A stretch of DNA of 64,000 nt, from positions 1 to 64,000 of the forward strand of contig JADZAC010000054.1 of the NCBI GenBank assembly GCA_020852835.1, given 5' to 3'. Every line of letters starts with the position of its first letter. Position 1 is the first letter of the stretch. This document shows, one piece after another, positions 26,095-36,239 of the stretch. The notes below the pieces were generated by a model. The model was not told the origin of the DNA. It made no database searches and worked only from the letters and a program-made list of their open reading frames with translations. The stretch is from Flavobacteriales bacterium (GTDB lineage Bacteria; Bacteroidota; Bacteroidia; Flavobacteriales_F; PHOS-HE28). Both the position numbers and the translations under genes were made by a program.

Positions 26095-26321
26095 GGGAAG
26101 CCAAAGAAAACACCGGCTCCGGTGATGGCACCACTTCGTGACCAGGGTGCCTGACGGAGCGGGATGCCCCCGGCACACCCGGAGATGATCGGTCCTTGCG
26201 GCCCGAAGGATCCCCCGCCTGCACCATTTTTCTTCCCCGTAGGGGAATGCCACGGACCGGTTGCGAGTGCGCCTGTTTTTCAAAAGAACGCCTTTGCTTT
26301 GCACCCCCAAACAGGCAAGGC

Positions 26322-28892
26322 ATGGCCAACAAGGAAGGAAGCGATCTGGTGATCGTGGAGTCGCCCGCCAAGGCGAAGACCATAGAAAAGTACCTCGGCC
26401 CGGGCTACACCGTGCTCAGCAGCTTCGGCCATGTGCGCGACCTGCCCGAGCGCGACCTGAGCGTGGACGTGGACAACGGATTCGAGCCCAATTACATCGT
26501 GCCCGACGAGAAGAAGGGCAAGCTGGCCGAGCTGCGCAAGCAGGCCAACAAGGCGGCCACCGTATGGTTGGCCACTGATGAAGACCGCGAAGGAGAGGCC
26601 ATCAGCTGGCACCTCAAGGAAGCGCTGGACCTGCCCGATAGCAAGGTGAAGCGCATCACCTTCAACGAGATCACCAAGAGCGCCGTCACCGCTGCCATGG
26701 CCGCCCCGCGCGCCATCGACATTCACTTGGTGGATGCCCAGCAGGCGCGCCGGGTGCTGGACCGCTTGGTGGGCTACGAGCTCAGCCCGGTGCTTTGGCG
26801 CAAGGTGAAGCCCAGCCTCAGCGCGGGCCGCGTGCAAAGCGTGGCCGTACGCCTTATTGTGGACCGCGAGCGCGAGATCACCGGCTTCAACGCCAAAAGC
26901 GCCTTCCGCATCAGCGCGCAATTCCTTACCGGCACCAAGGCAGCGGTCAAGGCCGAACTTCCCCAGCGCTTCGCCTCGGAGGCGGAAGCCTTGGCTTTTC
27001 TGCAAGGCTGCATCGGCGCGGCATTCACGGTACATGCCGTGGAAAAGAAGCCTGCCAAGCGCAGCCCCGCGGCGCCCTTCACCACCAGCACCCTGCAGCA
27101 GGAAGCCAGCCGCAAGCTCGGCTTCGGGGTGGACCGCACCATGCGCATCGCCCAGCACCTGTACGAACAGGGCCACATTACCTACATGCGTACCGACAGC
27201 GTGAACCTCAGCGAGCTGGCCATCAACGCCGCCGCCGAGGCCATCACCGCGCAGTACGGCGCGCGCTACAGCAAGCCGCGCCGCTTCGCTACCAAGAGCA
27301 AGGGCGCGCAAGAGGCCCACGAAGCCATCCGCCCGGCCGACATGCGCGTGCGCAACGCCGGTGCCGACCGCGATGCCGAGCGCCTTTACGACCTGATATG
27401 GAAGCGCACCTTGGCCAGCCAGATGGCCGAAGCCGAGCTGGAGAAAACCGTGGTGGACATCGCCATCAGCACTCGCCCGGGCGACCTGCTCAAGGCCCAA
27501 GGTGAAGTGATCACCTTCGATGGCTTCCTGAGGGTGTACCTCGAAGGCAAGGACGACGAGGGCGACGAAGAGCAGGAGGGCCTGCTGCCTGAGATGCGCC
27601 AGGGTGAACCGCTCGCTCTGCAGGAAATGACCGCTACCCAGCGCTACGACCGCCCCGCACCGCGCTACACCGAGGCGAGCTTGGTGAAGAAGCTCGAAGA
27701 GCTCGGCATCGGACGCCCCAGCACCTACGCGCCCACCATCAGTACCGTGCAAAAGCGCGGCTACGTGGTGAAGGAGAACCGCGATGGGGTGCAGCGCCCG
27801 TACCGCATCCTCACCTTGGCCGGTGGAAACATCAGCGACAAGACCACCACCGAGAACGTGGGTGCCGAGAAGCAGAAGCTTTTCCCCACCGACATCGGCA
27901 TGGTGGTGAACGACTTCCTGGTGGAGCACTTCCCCACCATTGTGGACTTCCACTTTACCGCCAAAGTGGAGGAAGAGTTTGACGGCATCGCCGAAGGACG
28001 CGAGGACTGGCGCGCCATGCTCAAGCGTTTCTACCAGCCCTTCCACACCACCATCGGCACCGTGGTGGAAACCGCCGATCGTGCTTCCGGGTCGCGGGTG
28101 CTGGGCCAGGACCCCAAGAGCGGCAAGGAGGTGGTGGCACGCATCGGCAGGTTCGGCCCCATGGTGCAGATCGGAAGCGCCGACGATGAGGAAAAACCCC
28201 AATTCGCCTCACTGCGCAAGGAACAGAGCATTGCCACGATCACCTTGCAGGAGGCGCTGGACCTGTTCAAATTGCCGCGCACCCTGGGCAGGAGCGGGGA
28301 GGAGGAAGTGGTGGTGAACGTGGGCCGCTTCGGTCCTTACGTGAAGATCGGGAGCACCTTCGCCAGCCTCACCCCGGACGATGACCCCTTGGAGATCGAC
28401 CTGCGCCGCGCGTTGGAGCTGGTGGAGCTGAAGAAGACGGCCAACGCCACCCGCGACCTCGGCGAGTACAAAGGCGAGCAGATCGTGCAGGGCCGCGGGC
28501 GCTTTGGGCCCTTCGTGAAATTCGGCAAGACCTACGCCAACATCCCCAAAGGCGAAGACCCCGCCACGGTTACCCTGGAACGGGCCGTGGAGCTGATCGA
28601 GGCCAAACTTGCCGGGGTGCGGCAAAACATCCTGAAGGCATTTGAGGGAACCACCGTGGAGATCATCGATGGCCGCTATGGCCCGTACCTCACCGACGGC
28701 AACAAGATCGCCAAGATGCCCGAAGGCAAGCAGCCTGCCGAGGTGACCTTGGAGGAGGCGCAGAAGCTGCTGGCCGAAGCTCCGGAGCGGAAGGGCCGCG
28801 GTCGCAGAAGTACAGCACCGAAGAAGGCTGCTGCAAAAAAGGCTGCACCCAAGAAAAAGGCGGCCAAGAAGAAGGCCGCCGGCAAGAAGTAG
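26322..28892 (+). CDS. topA: DNA topoisomerase I
   Basis: Type IA topoisomerase that relaxes negative supercoils. The 856 residues include the TOPRIM domain (VIVESPAKAKTIEKYL near 9, ATDEDREGE near 84) and the catalytic Tyr in ITYMRTDS near 287. The C-terminal third lacks Cys4 zinc fingers and instead has GRFGP-type repeats (near 610, 666, 724 and a GRYGP form near 785). It ends in a Lys/Ala-rich tail of about 30 residues. The start MANKEGSD is set by homology. In Bacteroidota this gene often precedes the T9SS gldK cluster, as here. Confidence 0.97.
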   Translation: MANKEGSDLVIVESPAKAKTIEKYLGPGYTVLSSFGHVRDLPERDLSVDVDNGFEPNYIVPDEKKGKLAELRKQANKAATVWLATDEDREGEAISWHLKEALDLPDSKVKRITFNEITKSAVTAAMAAPRAIDIHLVDAQQARRVLDRLVGYELSPVLWRKVKPSLSAGRVQSVAVRLIVDREREITGFNAKSAFRISAQFLTGTKAAVKAELPQRFASEAEALAFLQGCIGAAFTVHAVEKKPAKRSPAAPFTTSTLQQEASRKLGFGVDRTMRIAQHLYEQGHITYMRTDSVNLSELAINAAAEAITAQYGARYSKPRRFATKSKGAQEAHEAIRPADMRVRNAGADRDAERLYDLIWKRTLASQMAEAELEKTVVDIAISTRPGDLLKAQGEVITFDGFLRVYLEGKDDEGDEEQEGLLPEMRQGEPLALQEMTATQRYDRPAPRYTEASLVKKLEELGIGRPSTYAPTISTVQKRGYVVKENRDGVQRPYRILTLAGGNISDKTTTENVGAEKQKLFPTDIGMVVNDFLVEHFPTIVDFHFTAKVEEEFDGIAEGREDWRAMLKRFYQPFHTTIGTVVETADRASGSRVLGQDPKSGKEVVARIGRFGPMVQIGSADDEEKPQFASLRKEQSIATITLQEALDLFKLPRTLGRSGEEEVVVNVGRFGPYVKIGSTFASLTPDDDPLEIDLRRALELVELKKTANATRDLGEYKGEQIVQGRGRFGPFVKFGKTYANIPKGEDPATVTLERAVELIEAKLAGVRQNILKAFEGTTVEIIDGRYGPYLTDGNKIAKMPEGKQPAEVTLEEAQKLLAEAPERKGRGRRSTAPKKAAAKKAAPKKKAAKKKAAGKK

Positions 28893-29044: not shown

Positions 29045-30214
29045 ATGGAATCCAGCCTCTTTTTCAAACCTTCCGCAGTTTTTGGTGAGCGCCGCCCCGA
29101 GTGGGCCGCCAACACCTTGGGTGATGGTGTTGCTTTCCACACCAACCAAGGTTTTCCTGCACTGGAGGGGGTGAAGGTGGCCATCTTCGGCGTATTGGAC
29201 GACCCCGGCCATGCCAAGCCGCGCGGTTGCGTGGATGCACCCGATGCCGTGCGTGCACAGTTGTACAAGCTCTTTATGCCGGCCAACGGTTTCGGCATCG
29301 CCGACCTGGGCGACATCCATCCGGGCAACACCGCCGAGGATACCCGGCATGCCCTGGCCTCGTCCATCGCCGAATTGATCCGGATGAACATCGTGCCGGT
29401 GATCCTGGGTGGTGGCCAGGCACACACCTTTACCCAGTACCTGGCCTACGAAAAGCTGGAGCGCACTGCCAACCTGGCCTGCATTGATGCGCGCTTCGAC
29501 CTGGGCGAGCCGGGCCAAGGCCTTGCCGAAAGCAGCTACCTCAGCCACATCGTGCTGCGCCAGCCCAACTTCCTGTTCAACTACAGCAACCTCGGCTTCC
29601 AGACCTACTTGGTGGACCAGCCCGGCATCGAACTCATCGACAAGTTGTTCTTTGATGCCCACCGCCTGGGAGAGATCCGCGCCAACCCCGCCGATGCCGA
29701 GCCGGTGCTGCGCAATGCGGATACGGTCAGCGTGGACATGACCAGCATCCGCCGCTCGGACGCCCCGGGCACCACCCGCCCCGGCCCCAACGGCTTCCAC
29801 GGCGAAGAGGTGTGCCAGCTGATGCGCTATGCCGGGATCAGCGAAAAGGTCACCTCCATCGGGCTCTACGAAATGGACCCCTGGCGCGACCAGGACCAGG
29901 CCACCGCCCAGCTGGCCGCACAGATGGTATGGTGTTTCCTCGATGGCTTCGGCAGCCGCACCAACGACCTGCCCTGGCTGGACCGCAAGCGTTTCACCCG
30001 CTTCCATGTTCCCATCAAGGGGCATGAGCAGGAACTCATTTTCTACAAGAGCACCGTCAGCGACCGCTGGTGGATGGATGTGCCCTACCGCGCCGAGCGC
30101 GAAGCCCGCTTTGAGCGGCACCACTTGGTGCCTTGTGCCTACAGCGACTACACCGCGGCCTGCCGGGAGGAAGTGCCCGACCGTTGGTGGCGCACCTTCC
30201 AAAAGCTGGCTTGA
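29045..30214 (+). CDS. Arginase/formimidoylglutamase-fold protein with degenerate metal site (T9SS-linked)
   Basis: A 389-residue ureohydrolase-fold protein. In active family members Mn2+ is held by GGDHS, DAHxD and SxDxDxxDP. Here these read GGGQAH near 119, DARFD near 148, and SVDMTSIRRSDAP near 229, so several His and Asp ligands are gone. PNGFHGEEVCQLMRYAGIS near 248 is well formed, suggesting a maintained protein, not a decaying gene. From memory, a similar 'formimidoylglutamase' lies beside gldK in many flavobacteria. It probably has no hydrolase activity and may serve T9SS or gliding. It has no signal peptide, so it is cytosolic. The next gene is porP/sprF. Confidence 0.85.
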   Translation: MESSLFFKPSAVFGERRPEWAANTLGDGVAFHTNQGFPALEGVKVAIFGVLDDPGHAKPRGCVDAPDAVRAQLYKLFMPANGFGIADLGDIHPGNTAEDTRHALASSIAELIRMNIVPVILGGGQAHTFTQYLAYEKLERTANLACIDARFDLGEPGQGLAESSYLSHIVLRQPNFLFNYSNLGFQTYLVDQPGIELIDKLFFDAHRLGEIRANPADAEPVLRNADTVSVDMTSIRRSDAPGTTRPGPNGFHGEEVCQLMRYAGISEKVTSIGLYEMDPWRDQDQATAQLAAQMVWCFLDGFGSRTNDLPWLDRKRFTRFHVPIKGHEQELIFYKSTVSDRWWMDVPYRAEREARFERHHLVPCAYSDYTAACREEVPDRWWRTFQKLA

Positions 30215-30359: not shown

Positions 30360-31295
30360 ATGAGGAGGATCATTATCGCAGGTGCCTGTGCCTTGGTGGG
30401 AAGCGTTGCCTTCGCCCAGCAAGACCCGCAATTCACCCAGTACATGTTTGACCGCCTGTCGGTGAATCCGGCCGTGGCCGGGTCAACCGGCAACATCTGT
30501 GCCACCATGCTGCTTCGCCAGCAATGGTCAGGCTTTGATGGCGCCCCCAAGACCGGGTTGATCAACCTCCAGGGTCCCTTGGCAAGGATCAACAGCGGCC
30601 TGGGGCTGTCCGTGTATTTCGACAAGCTGGGCCAGGAAAAAAGCACCATCGCCCGCTTGAGCTACGCCTACCACCTCAAGGTGGGTGGCCAGAGCACCCT
30701 CAGTGCAGGCCTCTACGCCGGCCTTTCCGGCCGGGCGTTGGACGGCAACTGGGTGGCCATTGACCCGGTGGCCACCGACGAGGCCATCCCTTCAGCAGGC
30801 AAGAGCGCCAGCGGTTTCGACCTGGGTGCAGGCATCTATTTCAAATCCCCTCAGCTTTGGTTGGGCATCTCCAGCACCCAGCTGCCGGAAACCGAGCTCA
30901 AGGACGTGAGCATCACCAACAAGCGCCATTTTTATGTGCAGGCCGGCTACGATTGGGCCCTTGGCGGAAACAAGAAGTACACCCTGCAGCCCAGCATCCT
31001 GCTGAAGACCGACGCGGGCTCCACCCAGCTGGACCTGGGGGCCTTGTTCCTCTACGACAATATGTTCTGGCTGGGCGTGGGCTACCGCACCGAAGATGCC
31101 ATCGCCCCCATCTTGGGCTACCAGTACCAGTTCCCCAAGGGTGATAGCATGCTGCGCATCGGCTACAGCTATGATGTGACCACATCGGAGCTGAAGAACC
31201 ACAGCAGCGGCAGCCACGAAGTGATGCTCAGCTACTGCTTCATGATCGTTAAACCGGTGGTGAACGAAATCTACCATCACCCCCGATTCCTCTAA
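30360..31295 (+). CDS. PorP/SprF-family outer-membrane protein
   Basis: A 311-residue exported barrel protein. The signal peptide is about 1-19 (GACALVGSVAFAQ), followed by the family hallmark QDPQFTQYMFDRLSVNPAVAGS. Repeated amphipathic strands follow (LGLSVYFDKLG, LGAGIYFKSPQLWLGIS). In the T9SS, PorP/SprF proteins are outer-membrane partners of the trans-envelope complex or of specific cargo such as SprB. It stands just upstream of gldK, the usual place for the copy tied to the core machinery. Final segment PRFL is weakly conserved. Confidence 0.92.
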   Translation: MRRIIIAGACALVGSVAFAQQDPQFTQYMFDRLSVNPAVAGSTGNICATMLLRQQWSGFDGAPKTGLINLQGPLARINSGLGLSVYFDKLGQEKSTIARLSYAYHLKVGGQSTLSAGLYAGLSGRALDGNWVAIDPVATDEAIPSAGKSASGFDLGAGIYFKSPQLWLGISSTQLPETELKDVSITNKRHFYVQAGYDWALGGNKKYTLQPSILLKTDAGSTQLDLGALFLYDNMFWLGVGYRTEDAIAPILGYQYQFPKGDSMLRIGYSYDVTTSELKNHSSGSHEVMLSYCFMIVKPVVNEIYHHPRFL

Positions 31296-31419
31296 TCGAG
31301 CGTAACAAAAGGACCAGATCACCGTTGGAAACTTGTCCACCCCTCCCATACTGGAGTTGGTACCCAAGGAACCCTGCAAGGAACCTGGACAAGTCGGGAA
31401 CGGTATAACAAGGAAGACC

Positions 31420-32772
31420 ATGGAGCTACGTCCCATCCTATATCTCTGCGGGATTGCCGTGCTGGCCAGTTGTGGCAGCGGGGGGCAAGGGCAGCTGATC
31501 GGCGCCCAGAACCGCCCGGCCTACTACCAGGTGGATCCCTACGGGATGAACTACATCCCCATGGGAAGCTACACCATGGGGCCCAGCGACCAGGATGCTC
31601 CCTACGCCCAGGTGGCCAAGTCCAAAACGGTCTCCATACAGGCCTTCTATATGGACCAGACCGAGATCAGCAACAATGAATACCGCCAATTCGTGGAGTA
31701 TGTGATCGACTCCACGGCAAAAAAGATCCTGGGTGAAGAAGACATCGGCGAGCATGTGTTCAGCGAGGACGAATTCGGCGAGGAGATCGATCCGCCGGTG
31801 ATCAATTGGCGCACCCGCATCGACTGGTATGGCGAGGAAGAGACCGAAGCACTTGCCGACATGTTCTACCCGGAGAGCGAGCGTTTCTATCGCCGCAAGG
31901 AGATCGACACGCGCAAGCTCATGTTCGAGTACTACTGGATCGACCTCAAGGAAGCCGCCCGCAAGAGCGGCCGCGACCTGGACTTGGGCTATACCAACAC
32001 CAAGGGCGGCAAAACTTCCATCCAAGGCCATAGCGACCGCAGCAAGTTCATCATCAAGGAGATCATCAACGTTTACCCCGATACGCTGGCGTGGGTGCAT
32101 GATTTCACCTACTCGTACAACGAGCCGATGACCGAGAACTACTTCTGGCACCCGGCCTACGACGAGTATCCGGTGGTGGGCGTCACTTGGAGCCAGGCCA
32201 AGGCCTTCAACGTGTGGCGTACCCAAAACATGATGAATGCATGGCTTCAGTCGCAGGGAGAGCCCTTCATCAACCACTTCCGCCTGCCCTCCGAAGCGGA
32301 ATGGGAGTACGCGGCGCGCGGCGGCCTGGACCTGAGCCCTTGGCCATGGGGCGGTCCATACGTCCGCAACCGCCAGGGCTGCTTCTTGGCCAACTTCAAG
32401 CCCTTGCACGGCAATTACACCGATGACGGCGGCATCCACACCCTGCCGGTGGACAGCTACTCGCCCAACGACTACGGCTTGTACAACATGAGCGGCAACG
32501 CGGCCGAATGGACCAACACGGCCTTTGACGAGAGCGTGTACGATTTCGACCACGACATGAACTCGGAGTACACTTACGACGCCGTGGAGAACGACCCCCC
32601 CTCGATGAAGCGCAAAGTGGTGCGCGGCGGCTCGTTCAAGGATGTAGGCCTGTACCTGCAGACCGGTACCCGTGCCTATGAGTACCAAGACACGGCCAAG
32701 TGCTACATCGGCTTCCGCAGTGCGCTGACCTTCCTGGGTCGCGGCAAGGCGGTGAGGTCCGAAGACCTCTAG
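31420..32772 (+). CDS. gldK: T9SS ring lipoprotein GldK/PorK
   Basis: A 450-residue outer-membrane lipoprotein. The lipobox VLASC puts the lipidated Cys near residue 17. The rest is a formylglycine-generating-enzyme-like (sulfatase-modifying) domain: IPMGSYTMGPSDQD near 46, FYMDQTEISNNEYRQF near 76, and the C-terminal LPSEAEWEYAARGG near 287 with VVRGGSFKD near 405. With GldN it forms the periplasmic ring of the T9SS. The ATG at 31420 gives the lipoprotein signal; an earlier in-frame ATG lies within the intergenic leader. It leads the run gldK, gldL, gldM, gldN. Confidence 0.96.
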   Translation: MELRPILYLCGIAVLASCGSGGQGQLIGAQNRPAYYQVDPYGMNYIPMGSYTMGPSDQDAPYAQVAKSKTVSIQAFYMDQTEISNNEYRQFVEYVIDSTAKKILGEEDIGEHVFSEDEFGEEIDPPVINWRTRIDWYGEEETEALADMFYPESERFYRRKEIDTRKLMFEYYWIDLKEAARKSGRDLDLGYTNTKGGKTSIQGHSDRSKFIIKEIINVYPDTLAWVHDFTYSYNEPMTENYFWHPAYDEYPVVGVTWSQAKAFNVWRTQNMMNAWLQSQGEPFINHFRLPSEAEWEYAARGGLDLSPWPWGGPYVRNRQGCFLANFKPLHGNYTDDGGIHTLPVDSYSPNDYGLYNMSGNAAEWTNTAFDESVYDFDHDMNSEYTYDAVENDPPSMKRKVVRGGSFKDVGLYLQTGTRAYEYQDTAKCYIGFRSALTFLGRGKAVRSEDL

Positions 32773-32870
32773 GCCGGACAAACGGAATCACGGTGCGGCA
32801 TTTGGAACCTGCCGCGCCATTCATGGACAGCAAGGAAGAACCCGATCAACCCTAAAGCAAGGAAAAACAG

Positions 32871-33659
32871 ATGAAACCAGGCAGCAAGCGGTGGAAGAAT
32901 TTCATGGCCAAGTTGTACGGATTGGGCGCCGCAGTGGTGCTGGTCGGTGCACTCTTCAAGATCCAGCACTGGCCCATGGCCGACTTCTTCCTCATCATCG
33001 GTCTTACCACCGAGGCCATCATTTTCGCCTTCTCGGCCTTTGAGCCCCCGCACGAGGAACCCGATTGGAGCTTGGTGTACCCCGAGCTGGCATCCGCCGA
33101 TCATGCCATTGGCCAGGACTTCAAGACCGAAGACCAGCGCTCGATCACCGAGCAGTTGGATGACATGCTGGAGAGTGCCAAGATCGAACCCGAGCTCATC
33201 GAAAGCCTGGGCGCCGGCATGCGCAGCCTGAGCGACCAGGCCCGGGCCATGGGCGAGATCACCGGTGCCGCCTCTGCCACCAGCGAGTATGCCGATTCCC
33301 TCAAGGGGGCCTCGGCCAAGGTCAGCGCACTGAGCGACAGCTATGCGAAGGCCAGTGAGAGCCTCGTTGGCCTGACCGCCAACGTGGATGCCGGCCGCAG
33401 CGCCGGAGAAAGCCTGGGCCGCATGAGCAAGAACCTCAGCGACCTCAATGAGATGTACGAACTGCAGTTGCGCACCAGCCGTGAAAAGCTCGAGGCTGCC
33501 AACCAAATGTTCGCCGGCATGAGCGACATGATCGCCAACCTCAACGAAAGCGTGAACGACACCAAGCGTTACAAGGACAACATCTCCGAGCTGAGCAACA
33601 ACCTGGCCAAGCTCAACACCGTCTACGGCAACATGTTGGCCGCCATGACGGTGCGTTGA
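32871..33659 (+). CDS. gldL: T9SS motor protein GldL/PorL
   Basis: A 262-residue inner-membrane protein. Two membrane helices lie at the N-terminus (LYGLGAAVVLVGALFKIQHW, about 15-34, and ADFFLIIGLTTEAIIFAFSAF, about 38-58), and the acidic residue of the motor is in TTEAI near 48. The long cytoplasmic tail (about 70-262) is helical and coiled-coil-like. GldL and GldM form the proton-driven motor that powers secretion and gliding. It starts 98 bases after gldK, with an AAGGA-like stretch just upstream. Confidence 0.96.
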   Translation: MKPGSKRWKNFMAKLYGLGAAVVLVGALFKIQHWPMADFFLIIGLTTEAIIFAFSAFEPPHEEPDWSLVYPELASADHAIGQDFKTEDQRSITEQLDDMLESAKIEPELIESLGAGMRSLSDQARAMGEITGAASATSEYADSLKGASAKVSALSDSYAKASESLVGLTANVDAGRSAGESLGRMSKNLSDLNEMYELQLRTSREKLEAANQMFAGMSDMIANLNESVNDTKRYKDNISELSNNLAKLNTVYGNMLAAMTVR

Positions 33660-33712
33660 TCGCATCCACGACCTGTTAGGAACCAAACCAACGACCAAAT
33701 CCAGAGCCCGAC

Positions 33713-35356
33713 ATGGCAGGTGGAAATCTGTCCCCGCGACAGAAAATGATCAACTTGATGTACTTGGTGCTGACCGCGCTGTTGGCGCTGAACGTATCCA
33801 AGGACATCCTCGACAGCTTCATCATCGTGAACGAAGGCTTGGAGAACACCAAGTCCACGTTCAAGGAGAAGATGGACGCGACCTATGCGCAGTTCGGCAC
33901 TTTGGCCAAGGAGAACCAGGCCAAGTACGGGGCGGCATGGGCCGATGCACAACAAGTGCAGCTGCAAGCCTCCAAGCTCGTAGCGCACATCGATACCCTC
34001 AAGGGCCTGATCATCTCCAAGGCGGACGGACTGCCCTTGGACAAGGTGATGGGCAAGGCCAATGGCGTGGATACCGTGCTGAACCTGGAGTTCGTCAATA
34101 GCAAGGACAACAACACCCACATCACGGAAATGATGGTGGGTTCCGAGCCTGCCAAGCCCAAAACCGGGCCCAACACCGCCTTGGAACTTCAGGCCATGCT
34201 GGAGGATTTCCGCGATAAGGTGAAGAAGGCGGCTGCCAACGACCCCAAGTTGCAAGCCAGTGCCGACGACATGTTCAACTTTGAACCGCGCAAGGATGCC
34301 AGCGGCACCATGAACAACTGGGCGTCGATGAACTTCTACCACGTGCCTTTGGCCGCAGGCATCACCATCCTCTCCAAGATGCAGACGGACATCCGCACCA
34401 TGGAGAATGAACTGGTGGGCCGCATGATGAGCGGGGTGGAAGCCAAAACCTTCAAGTTCAACACGCTTACGGCCATCATCCAGCCGCTGAGCAGCTACGT
34501 TACCGTGGGGGGCAAATACCAGGCAAACATCTTCTTGGGCGCCTATGACAACCAGAATGCACCCGAGGTGTACATCGGCCGTGTCGATACCACGGCAACA
34601 CCTGCGGCGATCGTCGGCGATGCGGTGAAGCTGCCCATGAACGGTGCCATGGCCGTGCTGGAACAACCTGCCTCCAGCGCAGGCTTGAAGACCGTCACCG
34701 GCATCATCAAGTTCAAGCCTGTGGGCGGTGAGCTGCAGGTGCAACCGTTCAAGGCGGAATACGAGGTGGCTGCGCCCAGCCTGGTGGTGAGCCCCACCAA
34801 GATGAACGTCTTCTACCGCGGGGTGGACAACCCGGTGAGCATCAGCGTGGCAGGCTACAGCGCCACCAACATCGCTCCCAGCATGACCAACGGAACCTTG
34901 TCACGCAGCTCGGACGGTTATGTGGTGAAGCCCGGCTCGGGCAATACGGCCACGGTGAACGTGACCGTGACCAATGCCGACGGCAGCAAGAAGAGCTTGC
35001 CGGGCGTGGAGTTCCGCGTGAAGAACGTGCCCAACCCCACCCCTTACTTTGCCGGCAAGGGCGTGAATGACGAGAATGTGCGCAAGACGGAACTTTCCGC
35101 CGCCCAAGGGGTGATCGCCAAGATGGAGAACTTCGAGTTCGATCTGCGGTTCGAAGTGGTCAGTTACACCGTTACCGCCACCATCGCGGGCAACGTACTG
35201 GAAAAGCCCTGCCGGGGCCCGGCACTTTCTTCCGATGCCAAGGAGGTGCTCAACCGCGTCAAGTCCGGCCAAAAGGTCTTCATCGAGAACATCAAGGCCA
35301 AAGGGCCCGACGGCTCCATCCGCAACTTGGGCGCCCTGTCCTTCAAAGTGATCTGA
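33713..35356 (+). CDS. gldM: T9SS motor/stalk protein GldM/PorM
   Basis: A 547-residue inner-membrane protein with a single N-terminal helix (LMYLVLTALLALNVS, about 15-29) and a long periplasmic part made of a helical domain (about 40-225) and three beta-rich domains. The segment NPVSISVAGY near 378 and the C-terminal ISFKVI-like end (GALSFKVI) match the D3/D4 region. In the T9SS, the GldM dimer crosses the periplasm and contacts the GldK/GldN ring. It sits 53 bases after gldL and 22 before gldN. Confidence 0.96.
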   Translation: MAGGNLSPRQKMINLMYLVLTALLALNVSKDILDSFIIVNEGLENTKSTFKEKMDATYAQFGTLAKENQAKYGAAWADAQQVQLQASKLVAHIDTLKGLIISKADGLPLDKVMGKANGVDTVLNLEFVNSKDNNTHITEMMVGSEPAKPKTGPNTALELQAMLEDFRDKVKKAAANDPKLQASADDMFNFEPRKDASGTMNNWASMNFYHVPLAAGITILSKMQTDIRTMENELVGRMMSGVEAKTFKFNTLTAIIQPLSSYVTVGGKYQANIFLGAYDNQNAPEVYIGRVDTTATPAAIVGDAVKLPMNGAMAVLEQPASSAGLKTVTGIIKFKPVGGELQVQPFKAEYEVAAPSLVVSPTKMNVFYRGVDNPVSISVAGYSATNIAPSMTNGTLSRSSDGYVVKPGSGNTATVNVTVTNADGSKKSLPGVEFRVKNVPNPTPYFAGKGVNDENVRKTELSAAQGVIAKMENFEFDLRFEVVSYTVTATIAGNVLEKPCRGPALSSDAKEVLNRVKSGQKVFIENIKAKGPDGSIRNLGALSFKVI

Positions 35357-35378
35357 TCCCGCTAATCCCTACAAGCCC

Positions 35379-36239
35379 ATGAGAACCTCCACCAGCATCC
35401 TGTTCGGCACGCTGATCTGTGCAGGCATGGCCTTGGTTCCCGCAGCGGGCCAGGCGCAAACGGTGCTCGATGGCGCCTATATCAAGGAGCACACCAAAAC
35501 CCAGCGCGTGGTGCCCTATCCGTTTATCCGCGAGGCGGATGTGATGTGGTACCGCCGGGTATGGCGCGAGATCGACCTGCGCGAGAAGATCAACCACCCG
35601 TTGTACTATCCCACCGAACCGATCCAAGACCGCAAAAGCTTGTTCGACGTGATCAAACAAGGTGTACTGGAGGACGGTTCGATCACCGCCTATGACCCGG
35701 GCCCGATCGGTACGGACGATGAATTCACCAAGCCGATGCTGCCCGCCGAGGTGAAGGCACTGCTCACCAAGTCCGATACCACCCAGACCGAGGACATCTA
35801 CACCGGGGAGATGAAGACGGAGATCGTCACCACTGAAGTGAACAGTGATGGGATCCGCAAATACCTGCTCAAGGAAGATTGGATCTTCGACCGCCAGCGC
35901 TCGGTGATGGACATCCGGATCATCGGCCTTTGCCCCATGAAGGAGAACATCGGGCCGGACGGCGAGATGCGCGGCTATACCAAGCTGTTCTGGCTGTATT
36001 TCCCGGAGCTGCGCTACGTACTGGTGAACTGGGACGTGTACAACCGCGAGAACGATGCGGAACGGCGCTCCTTCGACCACCTCTTCTGGACGCGCCAGTT
36101 CAACAGCACCATCACCAAGATGAGCAACGTGTACGACCGCAACATCGCCCAGTACAAAACGGGCATTGATGCGCTGCTGCAAGGCGAAGAGATCAAGGAG
36201 TACCTGTTCAACTTCGAGCACGACCTCTGGAATTTCTGA
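35379..36239 (+). CDS. gldN: T9SS periplasmic ring protein GldN/PorN
   Basis: A 286-residue periplasmic protein with a signal peptide (about 1-26, ALVPAAGQA). The mature part contains the GldN signature: VPYPFIREADVMWYRRVWREIDLREKINHPLYYP spans about 47-80, and DWIFDRQRSVMDIRIIGLCP about 167-186. It pairs with GldK in the ring linked to PorP and GldM. The gene is last in the T9SS run and is followed 22 bases later by a strong terminator. Confidence 0.96.
   Translation: MRTSTSILFGTLICAGMALVPAAGQAQTVLDGAYIKEHTKTQRVVPYPFIREADVMWYRRVWREIDLREKINHPLYYPTEPIQDRKSLFDVIKQGVLEDGSITAYDPGPIGTDDEFTKPMLPAEVKALLTKSDTTQTEDIYTGEMKTEIVTTEVNSDGIRKYLLKEDWIFDRQRSVMDIRIIGLCPMKENIGPDGEMRGYTKLFWLYFPELRYVLVNWDVYNRENDAERRSFDHLFWTRQFNSTITKMSNVYDRNIAQYKTGIDALLQGEEIKEYLFNFEHDLWNF

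Follow-up and report, generated by a model that had tools for sequence, protein, structure and literature searches.

A conserved ureohydrolase-fold protein with altered metal ligands, encoded beside topA and gldKLMN in many Bacteroidia, is probably a partner-binding pseudoenzyme

The closest described relatives of the protein reported here are the formimidoylglutamases (HutG; TIGR01227; 3m1r, 4mxr/4myn, and 1xfk), which share its ureohydrolase fold over residues 15 to 307 (Z of up to 36; approximately 20% identity). Unlike HutG, it lacks the metal ligands H126 and D234 (arginase numbering), mostly has Gln in place of H101, and carries a C-terminal module; HutG genes occur in hut-type clusters, whereas this gene occurs in a topA/gld neighborhood. 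The Trypanosoma brucei arginase-like protein, a ureohydrolase relative without the binuclear Mn cluster and with no known function, likewise retains the fold without the metal cluster but belongs to a eukaryotic lineage. Arginase-like proteins without the cluster are also mentioned in PMC11271267, in which MetCb/MfmB (8snf and 8x3g) is described as the metal-free pseudo-subunit of metformin hydrolase, with five of the six ligands gone in MetCb. Thus, the ureohydrolase fold can serve as a binding subunit. Like our protein, MetCb/MfmB belongs to the arginase family and has lost metal ligands; unlike it, MetCb is paired with an adjacently encoded catalytic ureohydrolase, whereas none is encoded beside our gene, the product of which has its own C-terminal module. 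Within the open-access literature (subscription papers and bioRxiv were outside the search), we found no description of the family and no paper joining the gene with the type IX secretion system (T9SS), gldK, topA, or Flavobacterium.

We refer to the family of the open reading frame at positions 29045 to 30214 of the window (i.e., the entire 64,000-nt stretch analyzed) as ARGL. As the sequence-only reading had placed it, the gene lies between topA on its 5' side and the porP-gldK-gldL-gldM-gldN run (30360 to 36239) on its 3' side (Table 1). Its G+C content and GC3 are approximately those of the neighboring genes. ARGL was found in 42 of the 45 genomes of the same group (68 to 95% identity) with dN/dS values of 0.04 to 0.25, which excludes an assembly accident; the gene is under strong purifying selection. 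Scans for promoters and terminators around the open reading frame were uninformative. No hydrophobic N-terminal signal was visible when the protein sequence was read, and the location of ARGL is presumed to be cytoplasmic.

Table 1. Coordinates of ARGL, its sequence features, and its neighbors in the window
Feature	Position	Strand	Basis or remark
topA, DNA topoisomerase I	26196..28892	+	Most constant upstream neighbor of ARGL; 152-nt gap here
ARGL, non-catalytic ureohydrolase-fold protein (389 aa)	29045..30214	+	ORF, Pfam, AlphaFold2, structure match
Q125	29417..29419	+	At metal-ligand position H101; Q in 143/174 family members
D148-A-R150-F-D152	29486..29500	+	At D124/H126/D128; His replaced
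R207-L-G ... E219-P220 ... R223	29663..29713	+	Family-specific conserved stretch
D231-M-T233	29735..29743	+	At D232/D234; second Asp replaced
C-terminal extension, residues 307-389 (start approximate)	29963..30211	+	Near-invariant F333, W342-W343, C364, Y369, P378
porP/sprF-like gene	30360..31295	+	Downstream neighbor of ARGL; 145-nt gap
gldK	31333-32772	+	T9SS motor and ring genes
gldL	32871-33659	+	T9SS motor and ring genes
gldM	33713-35356	+	T9SS motor and ring genes
gldN	35379-36239	+	T9SS motor and ring genes; end of the porP-gldN run

By fold, ARGL belongs to the ureohydrolase (arginase) superfamily. Residues 44 to 298 matched Pfam Arginase (PF00491; E value, 9.7e-22; 78 bits versus a cutoff of 22), and an AlphaFold2 model built from an alignment of 103 family members (pLDDT, 92.8; pTM, 0.93) matched solved ureohydrolases with VIA Z scores of 28 to 36. 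The best structural match was the Trypanosoma cruzi formiminoglutamase (Z, 36 over residues 20 to 306); together with the Bacillus subtilis formiminoglutamase, it aligned to residues 20 to 307 with Z scores of 34 to 36, an rmsd of 2.2 to 2.5, and approximately 20% identity. Residues beyond approximately position 307 lay outside these matches. They form an extension that is missing from HutG and true ureohydrolases and that was overlooked in the first reading (family consensus, FYKS..S.RWWMEVP...PCSY.DY..A...E.PDRWW). Folded alone, the extension was predicted to comprise four strands and two helices (pLDDT, 73). It had no Pfam match, its sequence profile matched no solved structure with an E value below 0.2 (best, 0.21), and a Foldseek search with the model returned nothing at an E value of 0.001 or better (best, 1.6). 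The C-terminal module is family specific and of no recognized fold.

ARGL is monophyletic, class-wide in Bacteroidia, and of a single origin. Among 247 sampled genomes of the phylum, full-length homologs (34 to 49% identity) occurred throughout the class, and the family profile matched 188 of the 197 genomes in the class sample. Matches in other classes mostly ended near residue 306, short of the extension, and the four that were fetched had five or all six ligands. On the tree, ARGL formed a single clade (support, 100/99) apart from HutG, the nearest group. HutG was also the best NCBIfam match, but the score (94.4 bits) was below the equivalog cutoff (229.15), which would make "formimidoylglutamase" a wrong label; two HutG controls from hut clusters scored 271.8 bits. 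In several of the same genomes, true HutG genes were located apart from ARGL, many of them in hut-type clusters, and many intact paralogs clustered with imidazolonepropionase- and urocanase-like genes (named by reading the sequences). ARGL is easily taken for a histidine degradation enzyme. The window genome contains three further arginase family genes with motifs readable as intact, and thus these enzyme activities need not come from ARGL. A second, highly divergent HutG-like gene was seen on the same contig, outside the window and approximately 40 kb downstream (G000:C54:69816-70373; locus L213), with all six ligands readable as intact (GGGHN, DPHAD, and ELDMD).

The three ureohydrolase motifs of the window copy read GGGQAH, DARFD, and SVDMTSIRRSDAP. 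They are altered together exactly as the sequence-only reading had stated, within a fold that is otherwise well kept, as it had also noted. In arginase numbering, the ligand positions changed from H101 to Q125, H126 to R150, and D234 to T233, with D124, D128, and D232 retained as D148, D152, and D231 (i.e., QDRDDT in place of the H-D-H-D-D-D of an active binuclear ureohydrolase). Three of the six ligands are therefore replaced and three are kept, so the description of the ligands as lost was too strong for this copy. When the aligned homologs were scored for ligands, the intact set occurred in 0 of 174 ARGL members versus 14 of 16 HutG controls, the two other controls each differing at one position; no homolog with intact ligands in the same genomic position was found anywhere. 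In the 389-residue protein, the 126 position (residue 150), occupied by Arg, Lys, and many other residues, ranked 377th in conservation, and the 234 position, mostly Ser, Thr, Asn, or Gly, ranked 245th. W296, W342, E219, F333, R223, C364, W343, Y369, R207, and P378 were nearly invariant and mostly differed from the corresponding HutG residues. In some ARGL copies, the recognizable N-terminal half was gone and the C-terminal invariants were retained. Given that the ligand positions drift while other residues remain invariant, the constraint falls on noncatalytic residues. Catalysis by ARGL is very unlikely, and the protein is most likely a binding or scaffold pseudoenzyme that probably works by partner binding and not as the enzyme that its family name implies. 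The earlier claim of a noncatalytic but conserved protein held, both in these counts and in the dN/dS values. ARGL is a striking case of pseudoenzyme evolution in which the catalytic center has nearly disappeared in some lineages and another set of residues is invariant.

We consider it fairly probable that ARGL is a cytoplasmic, nonhydrolytic pseudoenzyme of single origin that binds a partner through a new site and has an accessory function, perhaps helping the T9SS/gliding motor; its location, binding function, and partner are what we infer here. Its progenitor would have been a formimidoylglutamase-like ureohydrolase that gave rise to ARGL a single time, no later than the radiation of Bacteroidia, within an ancestral topA-ARGL-porP-gldK-gldL-gldM-gldN run. 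It would hydrolyze neither guanidino nor formimino compounds. The partner (a protein or a small ligand) would be bound through a putative site composed of the C-terminal half of the core (Q186, R207-L-G, E219-P-x-x-R223, C257...R-Y-A-G264, and W296) and the C-terminal extension (F333, R341-W-W, P-C364, D-Y369, P378, and W381). Such a protein would be accessory and losable and, where the gene run persists, may act from within the cytoplasm in support of the T9SS/gliding motor. The invariant noncatalytic residues show experimenters which positions matter. To our knowledge, few cytoplasmic partners of the T9SS motor are known, and a selected noncatalytic protein encoded in a T9SS gene run across much of the class is a testable candidate. 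The more specific proposal that ARGL, acting through a conserved candidate site unrelated to the dead center, is an unrecognized partner of the T9SS/gliding motor in the cytoplasm (or couples topA to the motor operon) is speculative, and we regard it as rather improbable.

The sequence-only reading had proposed a dedicated T9SS or gliding factor, which might bind the cytoplasmic part of GldL/GldM or T9SS assembly intermediates and modulate secretion or gliding. We regard such a role as possible but doubtful. The gene is encoded with T9SS genes well beyond the window: among the 235 genomes for which positions of both ARGL and GldL were listed, GldL lay within 12 kb of ARGL in 131 (75 of 124 in the class sample and 56 of 111 in Bacteroidales) and was invariably encoded downstream in the same orientation (median distances of 3734 and 3650 nt, respectively). 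The sequence-only reading had placed a similar gene there in many flavobacteria, and adjacency to gldK was seen in many Bacteroidia. The genomes with both ARGL and GldL, ARGL only, GldL only, and neither numbered 187, 1, 4, and 5 in the class sample and 136, 2, 50, and 11 in Bacteroidales (Fisher P values, 3e-7 and 5e-5, which ignore phylogeny and are not proof). GldL was thus present in 187 of 188 and 136 of 138 ARGL-containing genomes, respectively. However, the T9SS is ancestral and nearly universal in the class, and the co-occurrence tables therefore mostly reflect inheritance.

The T9SS also occurs without ARGL, which was missing from 50 of the 186 GldL-positive Bacteroidales. All such ARGL-less genomes that were tested carry SprA, and the four ARGL-less loci that were read contain gldK, gldL, gldM, and gldN, with porP in three. 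A tree of 100 GldL+GldM pairs required at least 5 changes for ARGL and 3 for GldJ, with ARGL lost at least five times in Bacteroidales that retained GldL/GldM. This repeated loss excludes ARGL as an obligate part of the T9SS. Conversely, 11 of the 13 GldL-negative Bacteroidales also lacked ARGL. Of the two exceptions, genome G642 contains SprA, and its missing GldL is probably an assembly gap; genome G617, a single contig, has no GldL, SprA, or GldJ and retains an open ARGL frame directly behind topA. Occurrence without the T9SS, as for ARGL in G617, has a parallel in SkpA of the translocon, the operon of which is also present in Bacteroidota without a T9SS (PMC10994853); SkpA is unrelated to ARGL and acts in another place, and the analogy concerns dual roles only. 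We also considered whether ARGL tracks the gliding-type (GldJ-positive) T9SS, given that ARGL in T9SS genomes was nearly confined to those with GldJ (135 to 2; full table, 135/32/18/2; Fisher P value, 7e-21). This candidate was rejected on the GldL+GldM tree: most GldJ loss falls in a single clade nested within a larger one that lacks ARGL, and elsewhere ARGL was lost while GldJ persisted. In a T9SS clade without full GldJ (e.g., Bacteroidales genomes G574, G372, G473, and G504), GldL frames were 340 to 370 aa long, versus 260 to 300 aa in many other genomes. The losses, G617, and the steadier association with topA mean that the dedicated factor was not borne out as stated. Its opposite, i.e., homologs scattered without a link to the T9SS, was likewise borne out only weakly, with neither neighbor at 34 of 93 loci but a T9SS in nearly all of the surveyed ARGL genomes. 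ARGL may have an accessory function in the T9SS or gliding, or an older one tied to topA.

A topA-linked or housekeeping role, in which ARGL would act for topoisomerase I or in some other process of the cytoplasm, with a position before gldKLMN that reflects ancestral order, appears somewhat unlikely to us. At the 93 ARGL loci with sufficient flanking sequence, both topA and gldK were adjacent at 35, topA only at 21, gldK only at 3, and neither at 34. With topA directly upstream at 56 of these loci (raw counts that ignore kinship), topA is a more constant neighbor than gldK. The topA-ARGL gap had a median of 48 nt over 74 loci, with a 4-nt overlap at five, and ARGL lies behind topA without gldK nearby in the T9SS-negative G617 and related loci. 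However, the loci with neither neighbor count against such a role, gene order beside an essential gene can last through inertia, and the searches with the C-terminal extension recognized no nucleic acid-binding motif or fold. The topA-ARGL-porP-gldKLMN order is present in distant lineages and is presumably ancestral.

The altered metal center might instead act as a sensor, in which the MnA-like remnant (Q/D/D/D) would hold a single metal, or else a guanidino or amino acid ligand, and the C-terminal module would relay the signal; we consider this clearly unlikely. Among the 174 family members, D124 was kept in 159, D128 in 160, and D232 in 161 (91 to 93%), and Gln occupied position 101 in 82%. 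With these four residues mostly retained, most family members could still hold one metal or ligand at an MnA-like site. However, copies of the Bacteroidales family f105 in which nearly all six ligands are changed (MLANAS and PSSTNS) still have either 16 or all 17 of the family invariants and lie directly before porP-gldKLMN.

It is highly improbable that ARGL is a ureohydrolase active with altered ligands: structures of the T. cruzi formiminoglutamase exist both with Mn and for an N114H variant, which suggests that a true enzyme can tolerate an altered ligand, but two MnB ligands of ARGL are replaced by highly variable residues, its HutG score is far below the cutoff, and true HutG genes exist separately.

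Several loci showed further variation. A second GldM-like gene downstream of an ABC-F gene occurred in relatives of the window genome (L100:19280-20956, L101:19336-20958, and L103:11019-11873) and was not found within the window. At L236 (in G617) and at f105 loci L386 to L389, L392, L393, and L395, the N-terminal half of ARGL was unrecognizable and the C-terminal half conserved, with the gene directly behind topA and no gldK in the stretch read. In the single-contig genome G336 (C1:921214-922371), ARGL was split into several frames with stop codons, with GldL approximately 3.6 kb away; either this copy has recently become a pseudogene or the sequence contains an error. Short, very degenerate ARGL relatives of family f6 (L080, L081, and L083) were encoded on the other strand from GldK/PorP genes, beside an OmpA-like outer membrane gene.
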